Of a DNA stretch of 40,130 bases, positions 27,264 to 39,959 are shown one piece after another. The DNA is from an uncultured Gammaproteobacteria bacterium. GTDB lineage: Bacteria > Pseudomonadota > Gammaproteobacteria > Enterobacterales > Succinivibrionaceae. The translations under genes were made by a program, and so were the position numbers. How positions within the stretch are numbered: position 1 is the first letter of the stretch; each line of letters starts with the position of its first letter. The DNA lies in assembly GCA_900315395.1 (NCBI GenBank), contig OMZC01000014.1:1-40130 (forward strand), written 5' to 3'. The notes beneath the pieces were generated by a model. It saw only the letters and a program-made list of their open reading frames with translations. It ran no database searches and was not told where the DNA came from.

Positions 27264-28421
27264 TTATTTCTCCGAAGCCTTGATTGCTACATCAAGATCA
27301 TTTTTAAGATCTTCAAAGTTTTCAATACCTACTGATAATCTGATGAGGTTATCGGTAATACCTACTTTTGCTCTTACCTCTGCTGGGATTGCAGCATGAG
27401 TCATGGTAGCAGGATGGCATACTAAGCTCTCAACACCACCTAAACTTTCAGCTAATGAAATCAGATTTAAAGATTTAAAGAACTTGTTTACATCATGATT
27501 TTCCTTTAGCTCAAAAGAAATCATGGCACCACCGTTACGAGCCTGCTTTTTGTTGATCTCATAACCTTTGTGATCTTCAAGACCTGGATAGTAAACCTTT
27601 GAAACTTCACTGTGTGACTTTAAGAATTTTGCTAGCTTTAGAGCATTATCTGTATGTCTGTCTAATCTTACAGATAAGGTCTTGATACCTCTTATGAGTA
27701 GGAATGAATCAAATGGTCCTAAAACAGCACCTACTGAGTTCTGTAAGAAAGCAATCTTTTTAGCAAGATCTTCAGAATTTACGACAACTAAACCTGCAAC
27801 CAAATCTGAGTGACCACCTAAATACTTAGTAGCTGAGTGAATAACAATATCCACACCAAACTTAATTGGTTGCTGTAAATATGGGCTCATGAAGGTGTTA
27901 TCGGCAATGGTAAGTAAATTGTATTTCTTACCTAATTTAGCAACTCCTTCAAGATCAGTAATATCAAGTAGTGGATTAGATGGAGTTTCAATATAAAGAG
28001 CTTTTACATCAGGGGTGATCTTGCTTTCAATTAAAGCTAAATCACTAGTATCAATACTCTCAAAGTTAATGTTAAAGTTCTTAAAAACTTTATCTAAAAC
28101 TCTGTAGGTACCGCCATATACATTTGATGAGATTAAGATCTTATCACCAGATTTAAAGAGGCTTAACACAGTAGATACCGCAGCCATACCTGAAGCAAAG
28201 GCAAAACCTGCAACACCAGCTTCTAACTCAGCAATTAAAGCTTCTAAAGCTGCACGAGTAGGATTACCAGTACGTGCATACTCCCACTTTGGATTTAAAC
28301 CGATACCTTCCTGTCTGAAAGTTGAGGTCTGATAAATTGGTACATTTACAGACTTGGTATAAGGATCAGTGCTGATACCACCGTGAATTACTGCTGAATC
28401 GATAAATTTGTAATCTGCCAT
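27264..28421 (-). CDS. mccB: Cystathionine gamma-lyase-type PLP enzyme, MccB-like
   Basis: Trans-sulfuration enzyme of the Cys/Met metabolism PLP family, 385 residues. K199 in HSATKYLGGHSD is the PLP lysine; YARTGNPTR (48-56) and ASGMAAVST (77-85) contact the cofactor. In the MccAB pathway it splits cystathionine to cysteine, 2-oxobutyrate and ammonia. A homocysteine- or cystathionine-synthesising role (MetB-like) cannot be excluded from sequence. Its place next to mccA favours cysteine formation from homocysteine. It sits between the methyltransferase gene (14 bases) and mccA (2 bases). Confidence 0.88.
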   Translation of the reverse strand: MADYKFIDSAVIHGGISTDPYTKSVNVPIYQTSTFRQEGIGLNPKWEYARTGNPTRAALEALIAELEAGVAGFAFASGMAAVSTVLSLFKSGDKILISSNVYGGTYRVLDKVFKNFNINFESIDTSDLALIESKITPDVKALYIETPSNPLLDITDLEGVAKLGKKYNLLTIADNTFMSPYLQQPIKFGVDIVIHSATKYLGGHSDLVAGLVVVNSEDLAKKIAFLQNSVGAVLGPFDSFLLIRGIKTLSVRLDRHTDNALKLAKFLKSHSEVSKVYYPGLEDHKGYEINKKQARNGGAMISFELKENHDVNKFFKSLNLISLAESLGGVESLVCHPATMTHAAIPAEVRAKVGITDNLIRLSVGIENFEDLKNDLDVAIKASEK

Positions 28422-28435
28422 AGTTAATACTTCCT

Positions 28436-29338
28436 CTATTTTTCTATTATTCCTTTGACTAAATGCACGTTTGCATAGGCTTGCATGCCATCATGTCGAT
28501 TTTGAAAATACTTTTGATTGATGTCCTCTGGTGTCAAATGCTCTAAAACTCTGCCTTTGTAGTTTTTAAAACACTTTTCAATTTCTCTAAATTTATAACC
28601 ATGAACCATCTTTTCACCTAAGAGCTCGGTCATTTGATGCAACAGGGTTACATCAGAGTTCTCATCAGAGGTAAAAGTAGTGTCATCAGGATAATCAAAA
28701 ACAATCACTGATTCATTTTGGGTAATAGATGACAAAGTCTCAATGGTCTTTGAGAACACCTCTAAACTTAAATAATAGGTAACACCTAAGATTGAAAAAA
28801 AAGTCCTTTTATTAGGATCAAAGCTTGAGTTTGACAGTACCTCTTCAATGCTTTGTGTATTAAAATCAATTGGCACAAAATGCACATTCTTAGGCACTAC
28901 CCATTCAAGCGATTTAATCTTTTCTTTCTTGTAATAGCCTGTATCAGGATGATCTAATTCATAGATCTCAATATTCAAATTGGTATTTCTAAAAGCAAAG
29001 GTATCAAGACCTGCACCTAAGAGCACATACTGTACAGGACCTTCCTTTGCATACGCATTAAGGCTGTCTTCAGTGTATCTGATGCGTGATAAAGGTATAG
29101 GACTTAAGAACTTGTTTACCGTGTCATCGATTAGAGCGCGGTTGAATACATAGTTCTCGTCATACTTTTCTACATCAAAATTATGCTCAATTAACTGACC
29201 TACTTTTAAATACTCATGCTGACTTAATAAGTCATAAGCTAGTGAGTCATCAAAAATCTTTTCATGTGAATAGATTGAATGATAGGCTCTTACAAATGAG
29301 CAAATCTTTGCAGTAATTGATTCGTGTTTATCTATCAT
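28436..29338 (-). CDS. SAM-dependent methyltransferase, LCM/PPM-like family
   Basis: A 300-residue class I methyltransferase of the leucine carboxyl methyltransferase-like group. The SAM-binding motif is YVLLGAGLDTFAFR around residues 104-117, followed by an acidic residue in YELDHPDT near 130. LGVTYYLS near 185 is also typical of the group. The acceptor is unknown. Its position inside a cysteine/methionine operon parallels yrrT in the Bacillus mccAB operon, where a methyltransferase is tied to recycling of SAM-derived homocysteine; the parallel is one of position, and common descent with YrrT is not claimed. Confidence 0.82.
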   Translation of the reverse strand: MIDKHESITAKICSFVRAYHSIYSHEKIFDDSLAYDLLSQHEYLKVGQLIEHNFDVEKYDENYVFNRALIDDTVNKFLSPIPLSRIRYTEDSLNAYAKEGPVQYVLLGAGLDTFAFRNTNLNIEIYELDHPDTGYYKKEKIKSLEWVVPKNVHFVPIDFNTQSIEEVLSNSSFDPNKRTFFSILGVTYYLSLEVFSKTIETLSSITQNESVIVFDYPDDTTFTSDENSDVTLLHQMTELLGEKMVHGYKFREIEKCFKNYKGRVLEHLTPEDINQKYFQNRHDGMQAYANVHLVKGIIEK

Positions 29339-29354
29339 TTTTAGTACTCTTGCT

Positions 29355-30284
29355 TTACTTTAGAAAAACCGGAGTTGATAGATAACGCTCACCGGTATCA
29401 GGGAGCACCACGACAATGTTTTTATCAAAAAACTCTACTCTTTTAGCAATATTAGTTGCTGCAAATACAGCAGCTCCTGAGGAGGCACCAGCTAGTACTC
29501 CGTCAAACTTTGCTAGATCCTGAGCAGTCTTAAAAGCATCTGTATCATCAACATCTATGATTTCATCGATGAGCTTTACATCCAAATTGTTAGAGATAAA
29601 CTCTGAACCTATGCCCTGAATTTTATGGGCTCCTGTATATCCTTTTGATAAGAAAGGAGAGCGCGCAGGCTCTACAGCTATTATCTTTAAATCAGGATTT
29701 TTCTCTTTTAGGTATTTGCCTGTACCTGAGATAGTGCCTCCGGTACCAACGCCTGCAACTAAAACATCTACCTTACCTTCAGTGTCCTCAAAAATTTCAG
29801 GACCTGTAGTTAAGTAATGAATGTTCTTATTCTCCTGATTGTCAAACTGTGATGGAATAAAAGAGTTCTCATTGGACAAATGTAATTCCTGAGCTCTTTT
29901 AATCGCACCTTTCATACCTAAAGAGCCTTGTGTAAGTTCTAGAGTTACACCATAAGCTCGCAACAGATTACGTCTTTCTAGTGACATACTGTCTGGCATT
30001 ACAATCACAAGTTTTAAGCCATAGGAAGCTGCAACTAATGCTAAACCAATACCTGTATTGCCTGAGGTAGGTTCGATTATCAAGGTATCTTTATTTACCT
30101 TGTTCTGTGCAATAGCTGCCTTTAGCATGGCTAAAGCGATTCTGTCTTTTACAGATCCGCCTGGATTAAAAGACTCTAACTTAGCAGTAATTGGATTATT
30201 TAATCCTATAGCTTTTGAATACCCTTTTAATCTTAGTAATGGTGTTCTGCCAATCATGTCTGTAATGCTGTCGTAAATTTTCAC
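29355..30284 (-). CDS. cysK: Cysteine synthase A (O-acetylserine sulfhydrylase)
   Basis: First gene of the sulfur operon. PLP enzyme that makes cysteine from O-acetylserine and sulfide, 309 residues. K46 in NPGGSVKDR is the PLP lysine, PTSGNTGIG (72-80) binds the substrate, and GVGTGGTISGTG binds the phosphate. AVEPARSPFLS and KIQGIGSEFI match CysK from both Gram-positives and proteobacteria. AAGGAAAG lies about seven bases ahead of the start. A candidate promoter overlaps a 22-bp palindrome 160-195 bases upstream. In Firmicutes CysK also binds CymR to sense cysteine; whether that applies here is open. Confidence 0.93.
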   Translation of the reverse strand: MKIYDSITDMIGRTPLLRLKGYSKAIGLNNPITAKLESFNPGGSVKDRIALAMLKAAIAQNKVNKDTLIIEPTSGNTGIGLALVAASYGLKLVIVMPDSMSLERRNLLRAYGVTLELTQGSLGMKGAIKRAQELHLSNENSFIPSQFDNQENKNIHYLTTGPEIFEDTEGKVDVLVAGVGTGGTISGTGKYLKEKNPDLKIIAVEPARSPFLSKGYTGAHKIQGIGSEFISNNLDVKLIDEIIDVDDTDAFKTAQDLAKFDGVLAGASSGAAVFAATNIAKRVEFFDKNIVVVLPDTGERYLSTPVFLK

Positions 30285-31013: not shown

Positions 31014-31061
31014 ATTTTTCAGAAATAAATATTTTTCAGAAATAAATATTCAGACATAAAT
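31014..31061 (+). repeat. 17-bp tandem repeat ahead of the potA2 operon
   Basis: ATTTTTCAGAAATAAAT occurs twice head to tail (31014-31030 and 31031-31047), followed by a shortened copy, ATTCAGACATAAAT (31048-31061). It ends 27 bases before the potA2 start and could be a leader element or a row of regulator sites. Confidence 0.75.
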
Positions 31062-31088
31062 AGTCAGAAAGGATCACGGAGAAATAAT

Positions 31089-32201
31089 ATGGAGACTGAA
31101 CAAAAAGGCATTGGTCAGGAGCTGTCTGTTGTAAACGTATCTAAGTATTACGGCACCTTCAGAGCTTTGACCGATATTAACCTTGTCTGTAAGCCAGGTG
31201 AATTTGTCTCAATTCTAGGTTCATCAGGATCTGGTAAGACTACCTTATTAAAGGTTATCGCAGGTTTCGAGCGTTGCTCCGATGGTAAGATCTTTATTAA
31301 CGGTAAAGATGTTGCCACCGTACCTTGTTTTAAGCGTAACATCGGCATGCTCTTCCAGAACTACGCACTATTCCCTCATTTAACCGTTGCTCAGAACATC
31401 GCATATCCATTAAAGCTCCGTAAGTTAAAGAAAGATGAGATTGATAAGAAAGTAAAGCACATGATTGAACTTATCAAGCTTACAGGACTTGAAGACAGAT
31501 ATCCTCGTCAGCTTTCAGGTGGTCAGCAACAACGTGTCGCCTTAGCTCGCGCTATTATCTACAACCCACCATTACTGTTGTTAGATGAGCCTTTAGGTGC
31601 GTTAGATAAAAACTTAAGACATGACATGCAGTTTGAGATCAAAAGAATTACTCATAAGCTTGGCATGACAACTATCTCTGTTACACATGATCAGGAAGAA
31701 GCTTTCTCAATGTCTGACAAGATCTGCATTGTTTCAGGCGGTCAGATACAGCAGTTTGATACTCCTGAAAATATCTATGAAAAGCCTGCTAACCGCTTTG
31801 TAGCAGAGTTTATGGGTACTACTAACATTATTCCTATGAACGATGTTACCTATGAGGCAAACGGAGACAAGACCACTGTTACTGGTACTTCTCCTTTAAC
31901 TGAAGGTAAATGCGTTTTAAGTACTGATTCTAAGACTGTTAAAGCAACTGATAAAAATCCATTCTTTGCCTTACGTCCTGAGGATATCCACTTAAAGACC
32001 GAGTCAAACGCTCATGAGAACACCTTTAAGGCTAAGTTAGTAGAGAGCATCTATTTAGGTCAGTATGTAAAAGCTAAAGCTCAAGTAGGCAACATGTCTT
32101 TGAACGTAACCCTCGATGTTCGTGAATTTAGAAATTTAAATCCTGATATGTCTTGTGAATTCTCATTCTCACCAGAACACACAGCAATTATCTATAACTA
32201 G
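31089..32201 (+). CDS. potA: PotA-like ABC transporter ATPase of the codA-creatininase operon
   Basis: ATPase of a second polyamine-type importer, 370 residues. Walker A is GSSGSGKTT near residues 44-52. The signature LSGGQQQRVALARAI, Walker B LLLLDEPLGALD and switch THDQEEA follow, with a TOBE-like C-terminus (LRPEDIHL). It is the first gene of a tightly packed plus-strand operon through 37637. The ribosome binding site GGAG is about eight bases ahead. It is clearly a separate paralogue of the gene at 6183. The operon partners argue for a substrate other than polyamines. Confidence 0.92.
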   Translation: METEQKGIGQELSVVNVSKYYGTFRALTDINLVCKPGEFVSILGSSGSGKTTLLKVIAGFERCSDGKIFINGKDVATVPCFKRNIGMLFQNYALFPHLTVAQNIAYPLKLRKLKKDEIDKKVKHMIELIKLTGLEDRYPRQLSGGQQQRVALARAIIYNPPLLLLDEPLGALDKNLRHDMQFEIKRITHKLGMTTISVTHDQEEAFSMSDKICIVSGGQIQQFDTPENIYEKPANRFVAEFMGTTNIIPMNDVTYEANGDKTTVTGTSPLTEGKCVLSTDSKTVKATDKNPFFALRPEDIHLKTESNAHENTFKAKLVESIYLGQYVKAKAQVGNMSLNVTLDVREFRNLNPDMSCEFSFSPEHTAIIYN

Positions 32202-32211
32202 GAGTTTCATT

Positions 32212-33282
32212 ATGAAAAGCAAATTTGTTAAAACTTTACTCGTTTCATCTTTAGTTGCAGCTATAGCTACAGGTTGCGGTGATGAAAAAGACAATAATAA
32301 AGCTACAGACACTCAGGCAAAAGATGCTGGCTCTTTAGTCTTTGTTGACTGGGGTGGAACTAATACAGATGCCCGTATTGAAAAGAACATCAAACCATTT
32401 GAAGAAAAGACTGGCATTAAGGTTACTGTGGTTACCCCATCAGATTATGCCAAGTTAATTGCCATGGTTGAAAACGGCACCACCGAGTGGGACGTTATGA
32501 ACTGTGATGCTTACTGGGGTGTTTATGCAGGTAAGAAAGGCTATTTAGAGCCAATCGATTACAAGACAGTAACTGAAAAGTTAGATAAGGCTGTAGAGCT
32601 TGAGCACGTTGTAGGTGCTGAGGTGTATGACTCAGTTATCTCTTATAACACTGATAAATATACAGCTGACACTGCTCCTAAATCATGGGCTGACTTTTAT
32701 GATTTACAGAAGTTCCCAGGTAAAAGAGCTGTCTGGCAGTACCCTGTAACAGTTTTAGAATCAGCACTGTTAGCAGATGGTGTACCAATGGATAAACTCT
32801 ACCCACTAGATCTTGATAGAGCATTTGCAAAACTTGATACTATTAAAGATTCAATTGTGTGGTGGACTAAAGGCGCACAGCCAGCTCAGATGCTGTCAAC
32901 CGGCGAAGCCGATATCGCGCTTGCTTGGTCTGGTCGTATCATGAACGCAAAAGACGAGGGTTCTCCTTTAGGTCTTACCTACAACGAAGGTATGCGTATT
33001 GCAGCAGGCTGGGTAGTTCCAAAGGGAGCTCCTAACAAAGAAAACGCTATGAAGTTTATCAACTTCATTTCATCAGCTGAGCAACAGGCTGCTTTCTCCT
33101 CACAAATTCCTTACGGTTCAACCAATCCTGAAGCTGTAAAGCTGTTAAGTGCTGAACAGATTGAACGTATCGGTCAGACTCCAGAGCAGGTAGCTCACGA
33201 ATTCTATATCGATAACGACTATTGGGCAGATCACTTAACTGAAGTGGTTGAGCGTTTCAATGCTTGGTTATTAAAGAAATAA
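32212..33282 (+). CDS. Periplasmic substrate-binding lipoprotein, PotD-like, non-polyamine pocket
   Basis: Binding protein that captures the substrate outside the inner membrane, 356 residues. ATG 32212 was chosen because GGAG lies seven bases upstream. It gives a textbook lipoprotein signal: MKSKFVKTLLVSSLVAAIAT followed by Gly-Cys, with the lipidated Cys at residue 22. The rest is the PotD/family 1-like bilobal fold (LVFVDWGG, SWADFYDL, INFISS). In PotD, W255 and D257 (FWMD) hold the polyamine. Here the aligned stretch reads RIAA, so these contacts are gone. Substrate preference therefore probably differs; the operon suggests creatinine, cytosine or a similar base. It directly follows the ATPase gene. 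Confidence 0.85.
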   Translation: MKSKFVKTLLVSSLVAAIATGCGDEKDNNKATDTQAKDAGSLVFVDWGGTNTDARIEKNIKPFEEKTGIKVTVVTPSDYAKLIAMVENGTTEWDVMNCDAYWGVYAGKKGYLEPIDYKTVTEKLDKAVELEHVVGAEVYDSVISYNTDKYTADTAPKSWADFYDLQKFPGKRAVWQYPVTVLESALLADGVPMDKLYPLDLDRAFAKLDTIKDSIVWWTKGAQPAQMLSTGEADIALAWSGRIMNAKDEGSPLGLTYNEGMRIAAGWVVPKGAPNKENAMKFINFISSAEQQAAFSSQIPYGSTNPEAVKLLSAEQIERIGQTPEQVAHEFYIDNDYWADHLTEVVERFNAWLLKK

Positions 33283-33353
33283 GCACATAGAGCTTCTGCA
33301 TCAACTTTAGTTAATTGATTCACACAAACATATACACAAACAAAGCATTCAAA

Positions 33354-33374
33354 AAGAGGGGGCTTCCCCCTCTT
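33354..33374 (+). promoter_or_regulatory. Intra-operon GC-rich hairpin after the binding-protein gene
   Basis: AAGAGGGGG and CCCCCTCTT form a perfect 9-bp stem around CTT, with no T run after it. It lies between the binding-protein and permease genes. Such hairpins often protect the upstream mRNA so the binding protein is made in excess. Confidence 0.65.
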
Positions 33375-33388
33375 GTAAGGATTTTAAT

Positions 33389-34246
33389 ATGACTGCCAAA
33401 ACTCAATTTAAGTTCAGCTCATATGAAAGTGCCAAGTGGCTGTTGCTTGCCATTCCTCTTTTATATGTAGTCCTGACCATGGGATATCCTTTAGTGGATA
33501 TCATTTTAAAGAGCTTTAGAGGCAAAGATGGTTTTACCTTTGATTTCTATCTAAAAGCTTTTACTGATCCTCTGTATATCTCAGTTTTAATCAGCACTGT
33601 AAAGATTGCGCTTATCGTAACTTTAGTTTGCCTAGTATTAGCTTATCCTATGGCATATCTGAGTGTTAGTGCTAAAAGCCGTAAGGTAAGAACTTTAATT
33701 ACAGCAGGTGTACTTATTCCTTACTGGGTAAGTATGTTAGTTAGAATTTTCGCTTGGCAGATTATTTTACAAAACAACGGTATCGTTAATCAGGCTCTGA
33801 TGTTCATAGGTTTTGTAAAGGAACCGGCTAAACTTTTGTACACAGATCTTGCTGTTACCATTTCTCTTGTACACATTCTGATCCCTTTCATGTTCTTGAG
33901 CTTACAAAACTCTATGAAGCAAATTGATCCTAACTTACTGTTAGCTTCAAACATCATGGGTGGTACCAAGTTCTATGGCTTTATCCATGTGTTCTTACCT
34001 CTATCAAAAGCTGGTATGTTATCAGGCTCAATCATGGTTTTCGTGTTATCCCTAGGCTTCTATATTGCTCCAGCACTATTAGGTGGTCCCGACAACATGA
34101 TGTTATCTAACTTGATTGAAATCAGTATGAATAACTTCAACTGGGGTCTTGCTTCTGCTCTGTCAGTAGAACTGTTGGTATTAGTTTATCTAATCATTGC
34201 AGTTGCCTTTAAATTCACCGGAAACATCTTTATTAAAGATATCTAG
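33389..34246 (+). CDS. potB: PotB-like ABC transporter permease
   Basis: Inner-membrane permease of 285 residues with six helices, of the PotB type. The coupling loop reads LLASNIMGGTKFYGFIHVFLP, where the usual EAA is replaced by LAS (residues about 187-189), a mild departure from consensus. The start is ATG 33389 with AAGG about eight bases upstream, 106 bases after the binding-protein gene across the hairpin at 33354. Pairs with the permease at 34260. Confidence 0.9.
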   Translation: MTAKTQFKFSSYESAKWLLLAIPLLYVVLTMGYPLVDIILKSFRGKDGFTFDFYLKAFTDPLYISVLISTVKIALIVTLVCLVLAYPMAYLSVSAKSRKVRTLITAGVLIPYWVSMLVRIFAWQIILQNNGIVNQALMFIGFVKEPAKLLYTDLAVTISLVHILIPFMFLSLQNSMKQIDPNLLLASNIMGGTKFYGFIHVFLPLSKAGMLSGSIMVFVLSLGFYIAPALLGGPDNMMLSNLIEISMNNFNWGLASALSVELLVLVYLIIAVAFKFTGNIFIKDI

Positions 34247-34259
34247 TCAGGAGTAAATC

Positions 34260-35021
34260 ATGCTGTACTTTTTCGTATTCTTATTACTGGTGATAATTAT
34301 CGCTCCTGCTCTGGTAATTATTCCTCAGTCATTTACCTCATTGAACTACTTCATCTACCCTATTAAGAGCTTCTCTTTAAAGTGGTATGACAAGTTCTTT
34401 ATGAACGAGCAATGGATAACTTCATTAGAGAGAAGCTTGTTCATCGCAATCTGTGTAGCTGTTTTTGCAACTATCATTGGTACATTAGCAGCTTTAGCAG
34501 TTAACAAATTAAAGTTCAAAGGCAAGAACCTCTTTTTGAACCTGATGTTAACTCCAATGATTGTGCCTGTAGTTATCACTGGTGTTGCTTTGTATGCAAG
34601 CTTTGCTAAAGTCGGTCTTAATAACACCATTCCAGGTCTTATCATGGCCCACTCCTTACTTGCAATCCCTATGGTATTTCTAACCATGTCAGCTGCCTTT
34701 GCTAGATTTGACGCAAATTTAGAGTTAGCTGCCATGTCTATGGGATCAACTCCTGTAGGAGCCTTCTTTAAGGTTACCTTGCCTGGAGTTAAAAACTCTG
34801 TAGTTACAGGTGCTCTGCTCTCATTTGTAACCTCACTAGATGAGGTTGTAGTAACCATTTTCGTATCAGGCGCTAATACCAAGACTCTACCTATGATGAT
34901 GTGGGAGAACTTAAGAGCAACTATCGATCCTACCATCGCAGTTGCAGCAACCTTCTTAATCATTCTGACATTAGGTATGTACGTAATTAAAGAATTCATC
35001 GAATCAAGATCTAAGGATTAA
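34260..35021 (+). CDS. potC: PotC-like ABC transporter permease
   Basis: Second permease, 253 residues with six helices. The EAA-like loop reads LELAAMSMGSTPVGAFFKVTLP, followed by SFVTSLDEVVVTIFVSG, a stretch typical of PotC. GGAG lies about seven bases ahead of the start. It follows potB by 13 bases and precedes the deaminase gene by two bases, so import and catabolism are transcribed together. Confidence 0.9.
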   Translation: MLYFFVFLLLVIIIAPALVIIPQSFTSLNYFIYPIKSFSLKWYDKFFMNEQWITSLERSLFIAICVAVFATIIGTLAALAVNKLKFKGKNLFLNLMLTPMIVPVVITGVALYASFAKVGLNNTIPGLIMAHSLLAIPMVFLTMSAAFARFDANLELAAMSMGSTPVGAFFKVTLPGVKNSVVTGALLSFVTSLDEVVVTIFVSGANTKTLPMMMWENLRATIDPTIAVAATFLIILTLGMYVIKEFIESRSKD

Positions 35022-35023
35022 AA

Positions 35024-36277
35024 ATGACAGTTACAGTTTATAAAAACGCACAACTGCAAGGTTGTGACAAAACCACTGACATCGCTGTTGTTGATGGTAA
35101 ATTTGCAAAGATTGGCGGTGATTTATCAGATTATGAGAAAAATGGTAACACTGTAGATTTAAAAGGTAATCTTGTGATACCTCCATTTGCAGATGCTCAT
35201 ATCCATTTGGATTATATCTATACAGCATCATTGCCAACCCATGAGACTACCTCCGGTACCTTATTTGAGGCTATTGATAACTGGTCTGATTCTAAAGCTT
35301 CTCTTACAGCTGACATCATCAAAGAGAGAGCTTTAAAAGGTGTAAAGATGCAGATAAGCCACGGTGTGCAGTACGTCCGTTCACATGTGGATGTAACCGA
35401 TCCTAAGCTAACTGCTCTAAAAGCCTTGTTAGAGCTAAAAGAGGAGCTAAAAGACTACATTGACTTACAGATAGTAGCTTTCCCTCAGGAAGGTTACTTT
35501 GCCTACAAAGGCGGTGCAGAGTTAGTTGAAGAAGCTTTAAAGATGGGCGCTGATGTTGTAGGTGGTATTCCTCACTTTGAGTTTACCCGTGAAGACGGTG
35601 TACGCTCTGTTGAAAAAGGCTTTGAACTTGCTATGAAATATGACAAGTTACTAGACTTCCACTGTGATGAGACCGATGACGATCAATCACGCTTTGTAGA
35701 GTCTATTGCAGCCTATACCTACTTTAACTCAATGCAAGGTCGTACTGCAGCCTCTCATACCTGTGCTATGGGCTCATATAACAATGCTTATGCTTTCAAG
35801 ATGATGAGTAAGTTTAAGAAGGCTCAGTTAAACTTCATTGTCTGCCCAACTGAGAACTGCTATTTACAGGGGCGTTATGACTCATATCCAAAGCGTCGTG
35901 GTATCTCACGTGTAGATGAGTTAACACAGAATGGACTTAACGTCTCCTTTGCTCAAGACTCGATTTCAGATCCATGGTATCCACTTGGCAATGGCAACTT
36001 GATGCATCAGTTAGATTTTGGTTTGCATTTATCTCACATGATGAGTGTTGATGAAATTAAAAACTCATTAAAGTTTGTGACCGAAAACGGAGCTAAGACC
36101 ATGTGCATTAAAGACTATGGTATTAAAGAAGGCAATAGCGCTAACTTTGTAGTCTTAGATGAAAAGAATGTCTTTGATGCTGTAAGAAATACAGCTTCAA
36201 CCATTTTAAGTGTAAGAAACGGTAAGGTTATTATGGAAAAACAGCCTGAAAAAATTCTTACAACCTACAACTTTTAG
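35024..36277 (+). CDS. codA: Cytosine deaminase family amidohydrolase (CodA-like)
   Basis: Metal-dependent deaminase of 417 residues, cytosolic. It aligns closely with E. coli CodA. The metal and catalytic residues are present: H59 and H61 (HIHLD), Q155 (AFPQEG), H213 and E216 (HCDE), H245 (SHT) and D312, then DPWYPLG. One active-site change stands out: CodA has HDD at 312-314, while this protein reads QDS, so D314, which shapes substrate choice in CodA, is S313 here. Cytosine to uracil plus ammonia is the default reaction. Some creatinine deaminases belong to this family, and the creatininase-like neighbour makes that worth testing. It follows potC by two bases. Confidence 0.88.
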   Translation: MTVTVYKNAQLQGCDKTTDIAVVDGKFAKIGGDLSDYEKNGNTVDLKGNLVIPPFADAHIHLDYIYTASLPTHETTSGTLFEAIDNWSDSKASLTADIIKERALKGVKMQISHGVQYVRSHVDVTDPKLTALKALLELKEELKDYIDLQIVAFPQEGYFAYKGGAELVEEALKMGADVVGGIPHFEFTREDGVRSVEKGFELAMKYDKLLDFHCDETDDDQSRFVESIAAYTYFNSMQGRTAASHTCAMGSYNNAYAFKMMSKFKKAQLNFIVCPTENCYLQGRYDSYPKRRGISRVDELTQNGLNVSFAQDSISDPWYPLGNGNLMHQLDFGLHLSHMMSVDEIKNSLKFVTENGAKTMCIKDYGIKEGNSANFVVLDEKNVFDAVRNTASTILSVRNGKVIMEKQPEKILTTYNF

Positions 36278-36285
36278 GAGCGTAT

Positions 36286-37032
36286 ATGAAGATCATGCAT
36301 CATATGACCAGAGCTGATTTTGAAAAGGCTCAGGATAATGTAGTAGTACTACCAGTAGGTTCAACAGAACAACACGGTCCACACTTACCTTTAGGTGTTG
36401 ACTCTTATATTGCTCGTGGCATCAGTGAGATCTTATCAGAACGTACCGGTGCTATCGTAGCTCCTACTCTTACTTATGGTTATAAATCAAAACCTCTATC
36501 AGGTGGTGGTCCTTTATTTAAAGGTACCATTGATCTGAACGGTAAGACTTTAATCGACCTTGTATATGACATTCTCTGTGAGTTTGCCCGTGACGGTTAT
36601 AACAAGATCTTTATTAACAATGCTCATTTTGAAAACCAGGCTTTTATTGAAGAAGCTATGGATTTGGCTTGTCAGGCTTTTCCTAAATTAAAGGTTGTTC
36701 AGTCAAACTGGTGGGATGTTCTAGATAACGACACTGTAAATAAGGTCTTTTCAGATGTACCTTTCCCAGGTTGGGCTTTTGAGCATGCTGCTATTACCGA
36801 AACCTCTCTCATGCTCTTTTTAAAGCCTGAATTAGTAAGAAAGAACCTAATTCCTGAGGACGTTAAAGCAAAAGCCCTACCTTACTCTGTATATCCTGCT
36901 CGCAAAGAGATGGTACCTGAGTGTGGTGCATTAGCTCCTTCTAAGGGATCATCAGCTGAAAAAGGCAAGCTCATTGTAGATAAGGCCATCGAAGGCTTTT
37001 TAAAGATCTTTAAAGATGAGTTTAATGTCTAG
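36286..37032 (+). CDS. Creatininase family amidohydrolase, close to true creatininase
   Basis: Predicted cyclic amide hydrolase of 248 residues. It follows Pseudomonas creatininase along the chain. The metal-binding set is E28 and H30 (GSTEQHG), D39 and E116 (AHFEN), with H114 next to it. The aromatic residues at the active site are matched by W143 (NWWDV) and W163 (PGWAFEH). YGYKS (64-68) and SGGG (72-75) are also shared. The reaction would be creatinine plus water to creatine, reversible. The family also holds MftE and formamide hydrolases, but the YGYKS and tryptophan matches favour creatininase. No creatinase is in the window, so creatine breakdown would need genes elsewhere. GGAG precedes the start. 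Confidence 0.85.
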   Translation: MKIMHHMTRADFEKAQDNVVVLPVGSTEQHGPHLPLGVDSYIARGISEILSERTGAIVAPTLTYGYKSKPLSGGGPLFKGTIDLNGKTLIDLVYDILCEFARDGYNKIFINNAHFENQAFIEEAMDLACQAFPKLKVVQSNWWDVLDNDTVNKVFSDVPFPGWAFEHAAITETSLMLFLKPELVRKNLIPEDVKAKALPYSVYPARKEMVPECGALAPSKGSSAEKGKLIVDKAIEGFLKIFKDEFNV

Positions 37033-37040
37033 GAGGCAAC

Positions 37041-37637
37041 ATGGATAACTTTGTAATCACTGTTTCAAGACAGTTTGGTAGTTTAGGTAGACCTATTGCC
37101 CAAAAGATTGCGCACAAACTTAATATTGAGTATTACGACAGAGATCTGATTGAAAAGGCAGCTTCTATCATGAACGAGGATATGAGAACCGTATCTCCTT
37201 TAGATGAGAGCATCAAGCTTCCTTTTGCAAATGCCCTGTTTCCTTTAGGTTTAGGCACAGGTTCATCGCACAGACGTTTATTTAAAGTTCAAGAAAGTCT
37301 TATCCGTGAGTGTGTAGCAAAGAGCAACTGCCTAATTGTAGGACGTTGCGCTGACTACATCTTAAAAGACTATAAACGCAGATTCTCAGTCATGATCTAC
37401 GCTCCTTTAGAAGAGCGTATTAAAAACTCTGTCAACGAACTTAGAATTCCAGAGTATGAGGTAACTGACTATGTAAAGGAAATTGATAGAGCAAGAGACT
37501 CCTATCATAAGTTCTTTACAGATGAGAAGTTAGATACCATTAAATACAGAGACATGTTAATTGATTCATCTACTATGTCACAAGACGAGATAGCAGATTG
37601 CATCATTGAAGCTGCTAAAAGAAAATTGCACTTCTAA
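37041..37637 (+). CDS. Cytidylate kinase-like family protein
   Basis: A 198-residue P-loop protein of the cytidylate-kinase-like family. The N-terminus ITVSRQFGSLGRPIAQKIAHKL is split between residues 6-27 and forms the nucleotide-binding loop. YYDRDLI near 32-38 and LIVGRCADYIL near 98-108 follow the family pattern. A nucleoside monophosphate kinase role is possible but not proven for this family, which is widespread next to transporters. It is the last gene of the operon, eight bases after the creatininase gene, and a strong terminator follows. AGGAGG precedes the start. Confidence 0.8.
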   Translation: MDNFVITVSRQFGSLGRPIAQKIAHKLNIEYYDRDLIEKAASIMNEDMRTVSPLDESIKLPFANALFPLGLGTGSSHRRLFKVQESLIRECVAKSNCLIVGRCADYILKDYKRRFSVMIYAPLEERIKNSVNELRIPEYEVTDYVKEIDRARDSYHKFFTDEKLDTIKYRDMLIDSSTMSQDEIADCIIEAAKRKLHF

Positions 37638-37681: not shown

Positions 37682-37718
37682 AAGGCAGTCGCATTTTGGT
37701 GTGACTGCCTTTTTTTAA
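37682..37718 (+). terminator. Terminator of the potA2-codA-creatininase operon
   Basis: AAGGCAGTC and GACTGCCTT form a perfect 9-bp stem with a 12-base loop, followed by a run of T. Confidence 0.9.
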
Positions 37719-37724
37719 GCTCTT

Positions 37725-38639
37725 TTATAAGATCAGAGCCAGAAGAGGAATTGAAAGTACTGATAACAGAGTGGTTAAGAAAGTACCTTCTGACATGGTG
37801 CTACCATCAATATTATTCTTTAAGCACAGCATTGTACCGATTGAAGCTACAGGCATACCAAATAGAACTACTAATACCTGAGTGTATTTGTAATCTAATG
37901 GGCTTAATCTGAATAAACCGTATAGAACAACAGGAATTGCTAATAGCTTAATTGCAGTAAGAATATACATTCTTACATTGCCTAACATTCTCAATACAGG
38001 AATACCGGCAAGAGTAGAACCAATAATTAGTAATGAACCTGGTACAGTCATGCTACCTACTAAAGAGCAAGCCTCTGATACTTCTTTTGGCATCTTAGCC
38101 TGCAGGCATACGATCACGATAGTGATGTAAGTTGCACACAGACATGGTGAGAATAGAGTTCTCCACTTAAACTCAAACTTACCTTTACCAGAGGTAATAA
38201 TAGGCACACCAAACATAAAGATTAAGATGTTAAATGGAATAGTTACAACCGCTGCATAGAAAATTGCAGTTGAACCAAATAAAGCATCTAATACAGGGAA
38301 ACCAATGTAGTTGATATTTCCAAAGATCAGCATGAATCTGTATGAACCTAGCTGATCAGGATTTTTACAGATTAACTTTGATACAGTAAAAGCAATGATA
38401 AATAAGAAAGCATAAGACAAAAGACCTGCAGTTAATACAGGAGGAATATCCTCTGGCTTTGGTAATACCTCACCCATTACTGAAGATAAGATTAAGAAAG
38501 GTGCAGTAATATTTAAAATCAGAGATGAGAACTTACGATTAAAGTCGACATCCATGTATCTTAGCTTGTTACAGCAAAAACCAATGATAACAAGCAGAAA
38601 CAGAGCCCCCATCTGGGTCAGTGTGTCTAAAAAGCTCAT
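37725..38639 (-). CDS. AEC (auxin efflux carrier) family transporter
   Basis: Inner-membrane carrier of 304 residues with about ten helices in two repeats. Features of the AEC family are the early FLLVIIGFCCNKLRYMD segment and the NITAPFLILSSV stretch. IFGNINYIGFPVLDALFG lies near residues 108-125, and GMPVASIGTML falls in the later helices. Bacterial members move organic acids such as malate or malonate; the substrate here is unknown. It converges with the creatinine-type operon and has a nested palindrome ahead of its start. Confidence 0.88.
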   Translation of the reverse strand: MSFLDTLTQMGALFLLVIIGFCCNKLRYMDVDFNRKFSSLILNITAPFLILSSVMGEVLPKPEDIPPVLTAGLLSYAFLFIIAFTVSKLICKNPDQLGSYRFMLIFGNINYIGFPVLDALFGSTAIFYAAVVTIPFNILIFMFGVPIITSGKGKFEFKWRTLFSPCLCATYITIVIVCLQAKMPKEVSEACSLVGSMTVPGSLLIIGSTLAGIPVLRMLGNVRMYILTAIKLLAIPVVLYGLFRLSPLDYKYTQVLVVLFGMPVASIGTMLCLKNNIDGSTMSEGTFLTTLLSVLSIPLLALIL

Positions 38640-38909: not shown

Positions 38910-39959
38910 ATGAACAACTTATTGAACATAAGCAAAAGCTACATCAATAAATGTGGAGATATCATCGGTAAAGGTGACAAAGAAAGCTTTGAGTATGTTC
39001 AGGCTTTAAAGGCCATTTCAAATTGGAGATCTTTACATTTAGATCCTTTAAATAAGGTCAGAGCCATCGTAAAACGTAGATTAGAGAGCTCTGGAATTAA
39101 ATATCTTTTAGCTCAACGCTTAAAGAGAATGCCATCTATCATTGAAAAGGTAAATCGATATGATGGACTTGAACTTTCAAGAATGCAGGATATCGGTGGT
39201 CTTAGAATAGTAGTACCTACAATAGATGATATTAAAAAAGTTCATGACAGATTACTTTACAAAACTTCTACTTTGTCTTTGTCAAACGAAAAAGACTACA
39301 TAAACACAGATGGACCAAAGGCTGATGGTTACAGAAGTGTCCACATGATCTTCAAGTACAAAAGTAAAAAACATCCTGAACTTGCTCAATACAATATCGA
39401 AATTCAAATAAGAACTCAGCTTCAGCACTGTTGGGGAACAACAGTTGAAACATTAGGTATGATTGATAAGGAATCATACAAGACAGGTAAAGGAGAGTTC
39501 AAAACAAAACGTTTCTTACTTCTTGTAAGTGCTCTTTTTGCTTTAAAAGAAAAGACAAAGATACCTGATGCACTAGCAAAAGTATCACCTCTTGAAATAG
39601 CAAAAGAAATTGAGGACATTGATAACGAACTTAATATCACAAGAAAGTTGCAAGGTGTAGTTGTAAGTATCAAAGAGAAAAAAGTAAATTCTGATGATAA
39701 CTACTATGTATTAGAGCTTACTGTTAAAGATGATGGCAAAAGTAATATCAAAATCATGTCATTTAAAGTCGGTACAGATAGTTTAGCAGAGGATTTCTAT
39801 AGATTTAGAGAGCAAGAAACTCAAAACCTAAAAAATGTATCAGTTCTTATGATTAGATCAGATAAATTTATCAATATTAAGAGCGAATATCCAAACTACT
39901 TCTTAGATACTCAGAAATTCATTAAAGAACTGACAAAAGTAAGCTCTATTAATAGATAA
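38910..39959 (+). CDS. RelA/SpoT synthetase-domain protein without hydrolase domain
   Basis: A 349-residue protein with a single RelA/SpoT nucleotidyl-transferase domain at about residues 45-185. Key residues are present: D94 (MQDIGGLR), Y141 and H145 (DGYRSVH), and E164 (IEIQIRT). HCWGTTVE follows in place of the long-RSH sequence. There is no HD hydrolase, TGS or ACT domain. The C-terminal 150 residues are mixed alpha/beta and unrecognised. It could make (p)ppGpp or pppApp-like alarmones, or modify tRNA ends as toxic small alarmone synthetases do. TATAAT at 38841-38846 may be its -10 box. No antitoxin-like gene is seen in the 171 bases downstream. Confidence 0.85.
   Translation: MNNLLNISKSYINKCGDIIGKGDKESFEYVQALKAISNWRSLHLDPLNKVRAIVKRRLESSGIKYLLAQRLKRMPSIIEKVNRYDGLELSRMQDIGGLRIVVPTIDDIKKVHDRLLYKTSTLSLSNEKDYINTDGPKADGYRSVHMIFKYKSKKHPELAQYNIEIQIRTQLQHCWGTTVETLGMIDKESYKTGKGEFKTKRFLLLVSALFALKEKTKIPDALAKVSPLEIAKEIEDIDNELNITRKLQGVVVSIKEKKVNSDDNYYVLELTVKDDGKSNIKIMSFKVGTDSLAEDFYRFREQETQNLKNVSVLMIRSDKFINIKSEYPNYFLDTQKFIKELTKVSSINR

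Follow-up and report, generated by a model that had tools for sequence, protein, structure and literature searches.

A predicted creatine and creatinine nitrogen-scavenging operon in a member of the family Succinivibrionaceae

Introduction

What does a bacterium take up and degrade with an operon in which the genes of an ATP-binding cassette (ABC) importer are joined to those of a CodA-type deaminase, a creatininase-family enzyme and a kinase-like protein? This question is raised by seven genes at positions 31089-37637 of contig OMZC01000014.1, which stems from an uncultured gammaproteobacterium of the family Succinivibrionaceae. The window analysed here is this one entire contig of 40130 bases. 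An original prediction, made from the sequence of the window, regarded the genes as a candidate unit for the uptake and breakdown of creatinine or of cyclic bases. Its creatinine reading of the joined importer, deaminase and creatininase is supported by the curated family model TIGR04448, by conserved residues and by the gene neighbourhoods of related enzymes. Based on sequence comparison, we consider it fairly probable that the operon scavenges nitrogen from creatine and creatinine, with importer, creatininase and CodA acting in series.

Creatininase and CodA-type deaminase

Seven open reading frames (ORFs) on the + strand span 31089-37637, with gaps of 10, 106, 13, 2, 8 and 8 bases, and their organisation as one operon is supported. 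The layout described previously (seven same-strand genes, gaps of 2-13 bases, 106 bases at a hairpin and one terminator at the end) was confirmed in its coordinates and gaps.

The sixth gene (36286..37032, +) encodes a member of the creatininase (creatinine amidohydrolase) family and reaches 300.1 bits with TIGR04448, which is above the curated cut-off of 235 bits. The protein (CREATININASE) matches the creatininase of Pseudomonas putida (1j2t) with an E-value of 3.3e-48. Residue mapping showed that the positions E34, H36, D45, S78, H120, E122, W154, W174 and H178 of 1j2t are all kept in the window enzyme; we take these to include metal ligands and the tryptophans in contact with the substrate. 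Two remote family members used for contrast keep E34, H36, D45, H120 and H178, but in both of them S78, E122 and W174 are missing, and in one W154 as well. Its family, its active-site residues and the gene neighbourhoods of related enzymes lead us to infer that the enzyme interconverts creatine and creatinine.

The fifth gene (35024..36277, +) codes for a CodA-type deaminase (Amidohydro_3), which passes the cytosine deaminase model NF006685 with 532.3 bits (cut-off 483). Over the aligned parts it is 51% identical to both Escherichia coli CodA and 4r7w, which we take to be Kpn00632; NCgl0075 of Corynebacterium glutamicum is presumably also a 5-methylcytosine deaminase. Positions 311-314 (E. coli numbering) read AQDS in the window protein, in Kpn00632, in 6/6 aligned CodA proteins of Bacillota and in 4/4 close relatives, and GHDS in the proteins of Terrirubrum and Halobellus. 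E. coli has Asp at position 314 (the aligned chain 1r9z is the D314S variant), and the window protein and its four close relatives, all with Ser, are thus not of the E. coli type. The window CodA also shares C/T at 275/277 with the 5-methylcytosine deaminase Kpn00632 (4r7w, 4r85, 4r88), although the latter falls outside the clade formed by the window and Bacillota proteins on the tree. In PMC6186785, the site (Asp315 in its numbering) is called critical for specificity, and the Klebsiella 5-methylcytosine deaminase has Ser there. Plain cytosine deamination is not a safe call because the window enzyme has Ser instead of Asp at this position. PMC8864220 links CodA of C. glutamicum to the degradation of creatinine. 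By sequence, cytosine, 5-methylcytosine and creatinine are all candidate substrates of the window enzyme, and the linkage to creatininase favours creatinine. To our knowledge, no sequence signature proves creatinine deamination.

Conservation, gene neighbourhoods and origin

A search for the same gene order in related genomes had been proposed as a check. All seven genes were found in identical order and orientation (tblastn map) in G015 (81-94% identity), G012 (77-87%) and G013 (65-87%), which belong to the same genus, as well as in G027 (72-83%), which belongs to another. Since the order is present in four further genomes, the gene set exceeds chance. The binding-protein gene of G027 (G027:C99; L020:8007-9063) contains one in-frame TGA, which reflects either decay or a sequence error. 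Among 56 genomes of the family, full-length CodA occurs in five; three further matches cover only 47-59 residues (E 8e-5 to 6e-4). Creatininase was detected in six of the 56, namely the five with full-length CodA and G018, in which creatininase fragments lie on two contigs, one of them adjoining a kinase-like gene.

The best 80 of 580 relatives of the creatininase were kept. Outside the family, the closest creatininases among these are from Bacillota, with 61% identity in a metagenome-assembled genome (MAG) of the Clostridia (L024) and 53-56% in Clostridium, Eubacterium, Haloimpatiens and Veillonellaceae. The L024 locus comprises codA, permC, permB, a binding-protein gene and potA (53-75% identical), divergent from creatininase; a PucR-type regulator adjoins the set, and no match to the kinase-like gene was found within the locus. 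For analysis of linkage, the 80 loci were divided into 31 closer (L024-L054, 34% identity or more) and 49 remote ones (L055-L103), with slight overlap in local identity. CodA lies within the locus in 7/31 closer and 0/49 remote cases (one-sided Fisher p 0.0008, which is not a clean probability, as the loci are mutually related and some are short). Among the relatives with at least 53% identity, 7/8 have CodA within the locus; in L033, CodA is located ~7 kb away. Pot-type importer matches of 22-44% identity were found near creatininase in L041, L042 and L043.

Four Bacilli loci (L034, L035, L037 and L038) contain creatininases 45-49% identical to the window enzyme but differ in their surroundings. 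Taking identities from the members of L035, creatininase is accompanied by creatinase-like and major facilitator superfamily (MFS) clusters in 4/4, by a sarcosine-oxidase-like cluster in 3/4 and by a cytosine-permease-like cluster in 2/4, with no CodA in these loci. The creatinase-like member of L035 has Creatinase_N and Peptidase_M24 domains, the sarcosine-oxidase-like member passes the cut-off for N-methyltryptophan oxidase and narrowly misses that of SoxA, and the permease member is over the cytosine permease cut-off. In Fretibacterium (L036:8687-9925), an arginine-deiminase-family gene directly precedes creatininase and a cytosine/purine-permease-family gene follows it, perhaps as another guanidino route.

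Plasmid loci were examined in five of 409 matching records. CodA is adjacent to creatininase on the plasmids of Halobellus and Terrirubrum, the latter with a Pot-type importer nearby. The Ancylobacter plasmid (L015) carries, as annotated, creatininase, hydantoinase A and B, a nucleoside deaminase in the place of CodA, isochorismatase-family genes and a Pot-type importer in one run. This run resembles a route from creatinine to sarcosine that is equipped with an ABC importer.

In a tree of 31 creatininases chosen by us, the window clade is sister to L024 (support 98/96) within a group of 13 (97/96), the other members of which are Bacillota. The simplest reading is that the operon module reached the family by horizontal transfer from a Clostridia-like source, the direction being our interpretation of the tree. 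In 391 sampled genomes of the class of L024, creatininase occurs at E 1e-30 or better in five, of which two are among the loci found earlier; the gene is therefore patchy. Among the three additional genomes, CodA adjoins creatininase divergently in two, and in one (43% identical) a pair of Pot-type permease genes lies immediately upstream. A single scan of viral contigs yielded no creatininase relative, and the creatininase gene had no DNA match in E. coli genomes.

Importer and solute-binding protein

The first gene (31089..32201, +) encodes a PotA-type importer ATPase (ABC_tran with 130 bits for PF00005, and TOBE_2), which narrowly passes TIGR01187 with 359.3 vs 355.6 bits. Both permeases, permease 1 of PotB/PotH type (33389..34246, +) and permease 2 of PotC type (34260..35021, +), match PF00528 (BPD_transp_1) and score below the cut-offs of the PotH/PotB and PotC models, respectively. 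The second gene (32212..33282, +) encodes a lipoprotein solute-binding protein (SBP_bac_8; lipobox recognised by eye), which obtained 45.7 bits with the PotD-type model, far below the cut-off of 582 bits. Elsewhere the genome encodes a protein that resembles PotD more closely but likewise stays below the cut-off (153.2 bits vs 43.4 for the operon protein). The earlier description as a polyamine-type importer thus holds narrowly for the ATPase, but not for the binding protein, which is closest to receptors of gamma-aminobutyric acid (GABA) and opines.

The best PDB matches of the binding protein are 9d57 (2.6e-71), 4eq7 and 6dgv (GABA), followed by receptors of agropine and mannopine type, with 6hly (agropine) and 5l9g (MotA) among others. 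The GABA site of Pf622 is formed by W9, T13, F100, residue 102, W202, R205, D228 and Y264, and D228 bonds the amine (PMC12999171). Alignment places W47, N51, E137, Y139, W239, R242, A265 and Y301 of the window protein at these eight positions. Compared to the GABA-binding proteins Atu4243 (4eq7) and Pf622 (6dgv, 9d57), to which it is similar at E 7.7e-68 to 2.6e-71, the window protein keeps W9, W202, R205 and Y264 and differs by T13N, F100E and D228A, and thus does not carry the full set of GABA-site residues. The position of Pf622 F102 is Tyr, as in Atu4243. All eight positions agree in L024, G015, G012 and G013 (G027 was left out of this comparison). The arginine (R242, equivalent to R205) is taken by us to suit a carboxylate ligand. 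The kept arginine and the moved acid suggest a ligand that combines a carboxylate with a cation in another position, a description that creatine fits and creatinine fits less well, so that we predict a creatine or creatinine receptor.

Proposed pathway and alternative explanations

The ABC importer would take up creatine and/or creatinine, and creatininase would interconvert the two. CodA would then deaminate creatinine to N-methylhydantoin and ammonia, the latter being available for growth. The original prediction noted that the two enzymes attack creatinine at different bonds. Creatinine-type chemistry is upheld, but the two need not be rival routes, since creatininase converts both ways according to PMC8864220 and the two enzymes can therefore act in series. 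When creatine is taken up, the pull of deamination may drive creatininase towards creatinine. N-methylhydantoin would be an end product, as the searches gave neither a convincing hydantoinase A nor a creatinase. Of the six draft genomes searched, four had hydantoinase A matches, all of them partial (~100 of 291 positions), and two of these matches barely exceeded the cut-off. The match in the genome of the window, the sole one inspected, lies in an ORF that starts DnaK-like (by eye). Creatinase gave no match in the same number of draft genomes in a search without positive control.

A more complete scheme is put forward tentatively, as a possibility. A creatine importer would feed a creatininase run backwards as creatine cyclase and drained by a CodA-type creatinine deaminase, giving an oxygen-independent, creatinase-free conversion of creatine to ammonia and N-methylhydantoin. 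This route would have been passed between Clostridia and a proteobacterial family, and its importer would have a kinase-fold accessory of a kind that goes with many transporters.

Several observations weigh against a creatine/creatinine operon. Y121 of the P. putida creatininase is Phe and D175 is Ala in the window enzyme. Ala at 175 is also found in the creatininases of Sporosarcina, Oceanobacillus and Peribacillus (Bacilli clusters), and a loss of function by D175A was dropped as an objection because this change is common to Bacilli creatininases in creatinine-type clusters. The importer-linked binding proteins of two Alphaproteobacteria (L013 and L015) lack the R205 equivalent and therefore give no support to a carboxylate ligand. 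The loci L026, L031 and L032 (53, 52 and 50% identity) lack CodA, and on the plasmids of Salipiger and Rhizobium CodA and a Pot-type importer are both lacking next to creatininase, which argues against a universal link. In G018, no CodA was found, although creatininase fragments and the kinase-like gene are present. The absences of hydantoinase and creatinase rest on incomplete assemblies.

The window CodA could also act mainly on cytosine or 5-methylcytosine. In that case the operon would scavenge pyrimidine bases: CodA would convert imported cytosine or 5-methylcytosine to uracil or thymine, while the creatininase-family enzyme would open or trim a related cyclic amide. The score with the cytosine deaminase model and the resemblance of the discriminating site to the Klebsiella 5-methylcytosine deaminase argue for it, as does a related Klebsiella record in which codA lies beside codB and a PucR regulator (codB-PucR-codA), with no creatininase in the stretch shown. 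This record and one of Citrobacter, two of the 717 plasmid records matching CodA, both showed no creatininase in the stretch given. We regard this explanation as unlikely: among the 56 family genomes none was found to have a full-length CodA without creatininase, the creatininase exceeds a specific equivalog cut-off and has some kin in creatine/creatinine-type clusters, and the kinase-like gene falls short of the CMP kinase model (see below). It appears quite unlikely that creatinine is imported for two parallel enzymes, one part being deaminated for ammonia and another turned into creatine by hydrolysis, for detoxification or storage. By family, creatinine is a substrate of both enzymes, and creatine formation or further breakdown of N-methylhydantoin is suggested to aid C. 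glutamicum at high creatinine (PMC8864220). The GABA-site arginine of the binding protein, given the role assumed above, would nevertheless suit a carboxylate such as creatine better than creatinine. An importer for a polyamine or GABA-like compound, with two enzymes co-transcribed without a common substrate, is highly improbable. The ATPase does match the polyamine subfamily by its narrow pass and the binding protein is closest to GABA receptors, but three of eight GABA-site residues, one of them the Asp that binds the amine, are replaced by residues of another kind, and at a fourth position Phe has become Tyr. Moreover, the better PotD-like protein is encoded elsewhere, and the set of importer, CodA and creatininase recurs in a Clostridia genome. 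We retain nitrogen scavenging from creatine and creatinine as the preferred explanation.

Cytidylate kinase-like protein

The last gene (37041..37637, +) encodes a Cytidylate_kin2 protein (PF13189, 150 vs 28 bits), which reached only 21.7 bits with the (d)CMP kinase model TIGR02173 (cut-off 102.1), CMP being cytidine monophosphate. At the presumed position of the Walker-type lysine, the alignment column shows Arg in the window protein and in 32/35 relatives, and Lys in none. Matches outside the family but in the same phylum are 29% identical or less among the matches listed. Only two PDB sequences matched, 3hdt (2.2e-18) and 3fdi (1.5e-16), which are entitled 'putative kinase' and 'uncharacterized protein', whereas their relative in the window ends an ABC importer operon.

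The genome has another strong Cytidylate_kin2 gene, which closes a further ABC importer operon composed of an ATPase, a binding protein and two permeases (judged by length and sequence), and the same applies to G012 and G015 (by eye). A copy in G013 lies at a similar ATPase/permease locus, and a further copy in G015 lies between an aminotransferase-like gene and a gene for a seemingly membrane-bound protein of 906 amino acids (aa; both by eye). We scored 35 Cytidylate_kin2 loci, taken from genomes of the same class as the L024 MAG and from other creatininase-bearing genomes; these loci are best matches and not a random sample. A polytopic membrane protein or ABC ATPase was a same-strand neighbour within 200 bases, or fused, in 17/35 loci vs 20/106 control ORFs (one-sided Fisher p 0.0008; control ORFs were chosen for convenience and membrane segments were assigned by simple hydropathy). 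Ten neighbour ORFs chosen by us comprised five of MatE or polysaccharide-exporter type, among them a MatE-Cytidylate_kin2 fusion (L207:88-2085), two ABC permeases, one citrate transporter, one BacA and one elongation-factor-G-like protein. The Cytidylate_kin2 protein at L124:4210-4815 is also among the transporter-associated cases. The link to transporters is strong but not universal, because 18/35 loci lack it. The window protein is more likely a transporter accessory or regulator than a CMP kinase, and would probably serve the transporter and not the chemistry of the pathway. The salvage of cytosine-like bases, considered originally for the operon, is unlikely to be served by this gene, given the failed CMP kinase model and the enrichment of the family beside transporters.

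Regulatory elements and flanking genes

A G+C-rich hairpin (33350..33375, +; hairpin scan) lies in the 106-base gap after the binding-protein gene. Over its full length, the gap shows no unusual folding stability (z -1.79; 12/200 shuffles equally stable). G+C-rich hairpins of differing sequence can form at the same gap in G015, G012, G027 and G013. A hairpin between binding-protein and permease genes is a common device yielding more binding protein than permease, and the hairpin of the operon fits such a dosage device. A strong hairpin followed by a T run at 37682..37711 (+), with z -4.69 and 0/200 shuffles equally stable, is a rho-independent terminator ending the operon.

Immediately upstream of the first gene, the leader contains three near-identical 14-base direct copies of TTCAGAAATAAATA (31018..31062, +; 100, 100 and 93% identity), a possible regulator site; by eye, they are not evident in the leaders of four relatives. 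Promoter-like sites were not in excess over shuffles (20 vs a mean of 22.2), and no Rfam family reached the gathering threshold anywhere in the window in the search for riboswitch control.

On the - strand at 27264-30284, a cluster of pyridoxal phosphate (PLP) enzymes and a methyltransferase comprises a PALP-family cysK-like gene, a TIGR00027 methyltransferase (138.9 vs 93.55 bits) and a cystathionine-lyase-like gene (by eye). A Mem_trans/auxin-efflux-type carrier (37725-38639, -) is convergent with the operon. A RelA_SpoT-domain protein of 349 aa (38910-39959) scored below the cut-off of the YjbM-type model and is a possible small alarmone synthetase.

Comparison with known systems and significance

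C. glutamicum ATCC 14067 can use creatine as its nitrogen source for growth, requires the transporter CreT for this and has CrnA and CodA; both enzyme types co-occur in C. glutamicum strains (PMC8864220). Its system (creT, crnA, crnT, codA, cshA, hyuB) thus shares with the window a creatininase, a creatinine-linked CodA and creatine/creatinine as nitrogen source. It differs in its transporters, CreT with 11 predicted membrane spans and CrnT, and in a hydantoin branch (PMC8864220), whereas the window has one ABC importer, all genes in one operon and no convincing hydantoinase A. No operon of ABC importer, CodA and creatininase was found described in the open-licence literature searched. The earlier remark that no described operon with exactly this set was known is therefore uncontradicted there, while the enzyme pair itself is that of the C. 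glutamicum strains. Chemistry and enzymes are known; their packaging in an operon with a dedicated importer was not found described.

In vertebrates, creatine and creatinine are waste forms of nitrogen, and in PMC10215027 the genes of creatinine metabolism are called hardly characterized in common infant gut symbionts. The transporter link provides a functional lead for Cytidylate_kin2, a family that only three papers of the open-licence literature searched name, and the binding protein would offer a candidate for a creatine sensor. As a compact and recognisable unit, the operon would mark the use of creatine and creatinine and the formation of N-methylhydantoin.

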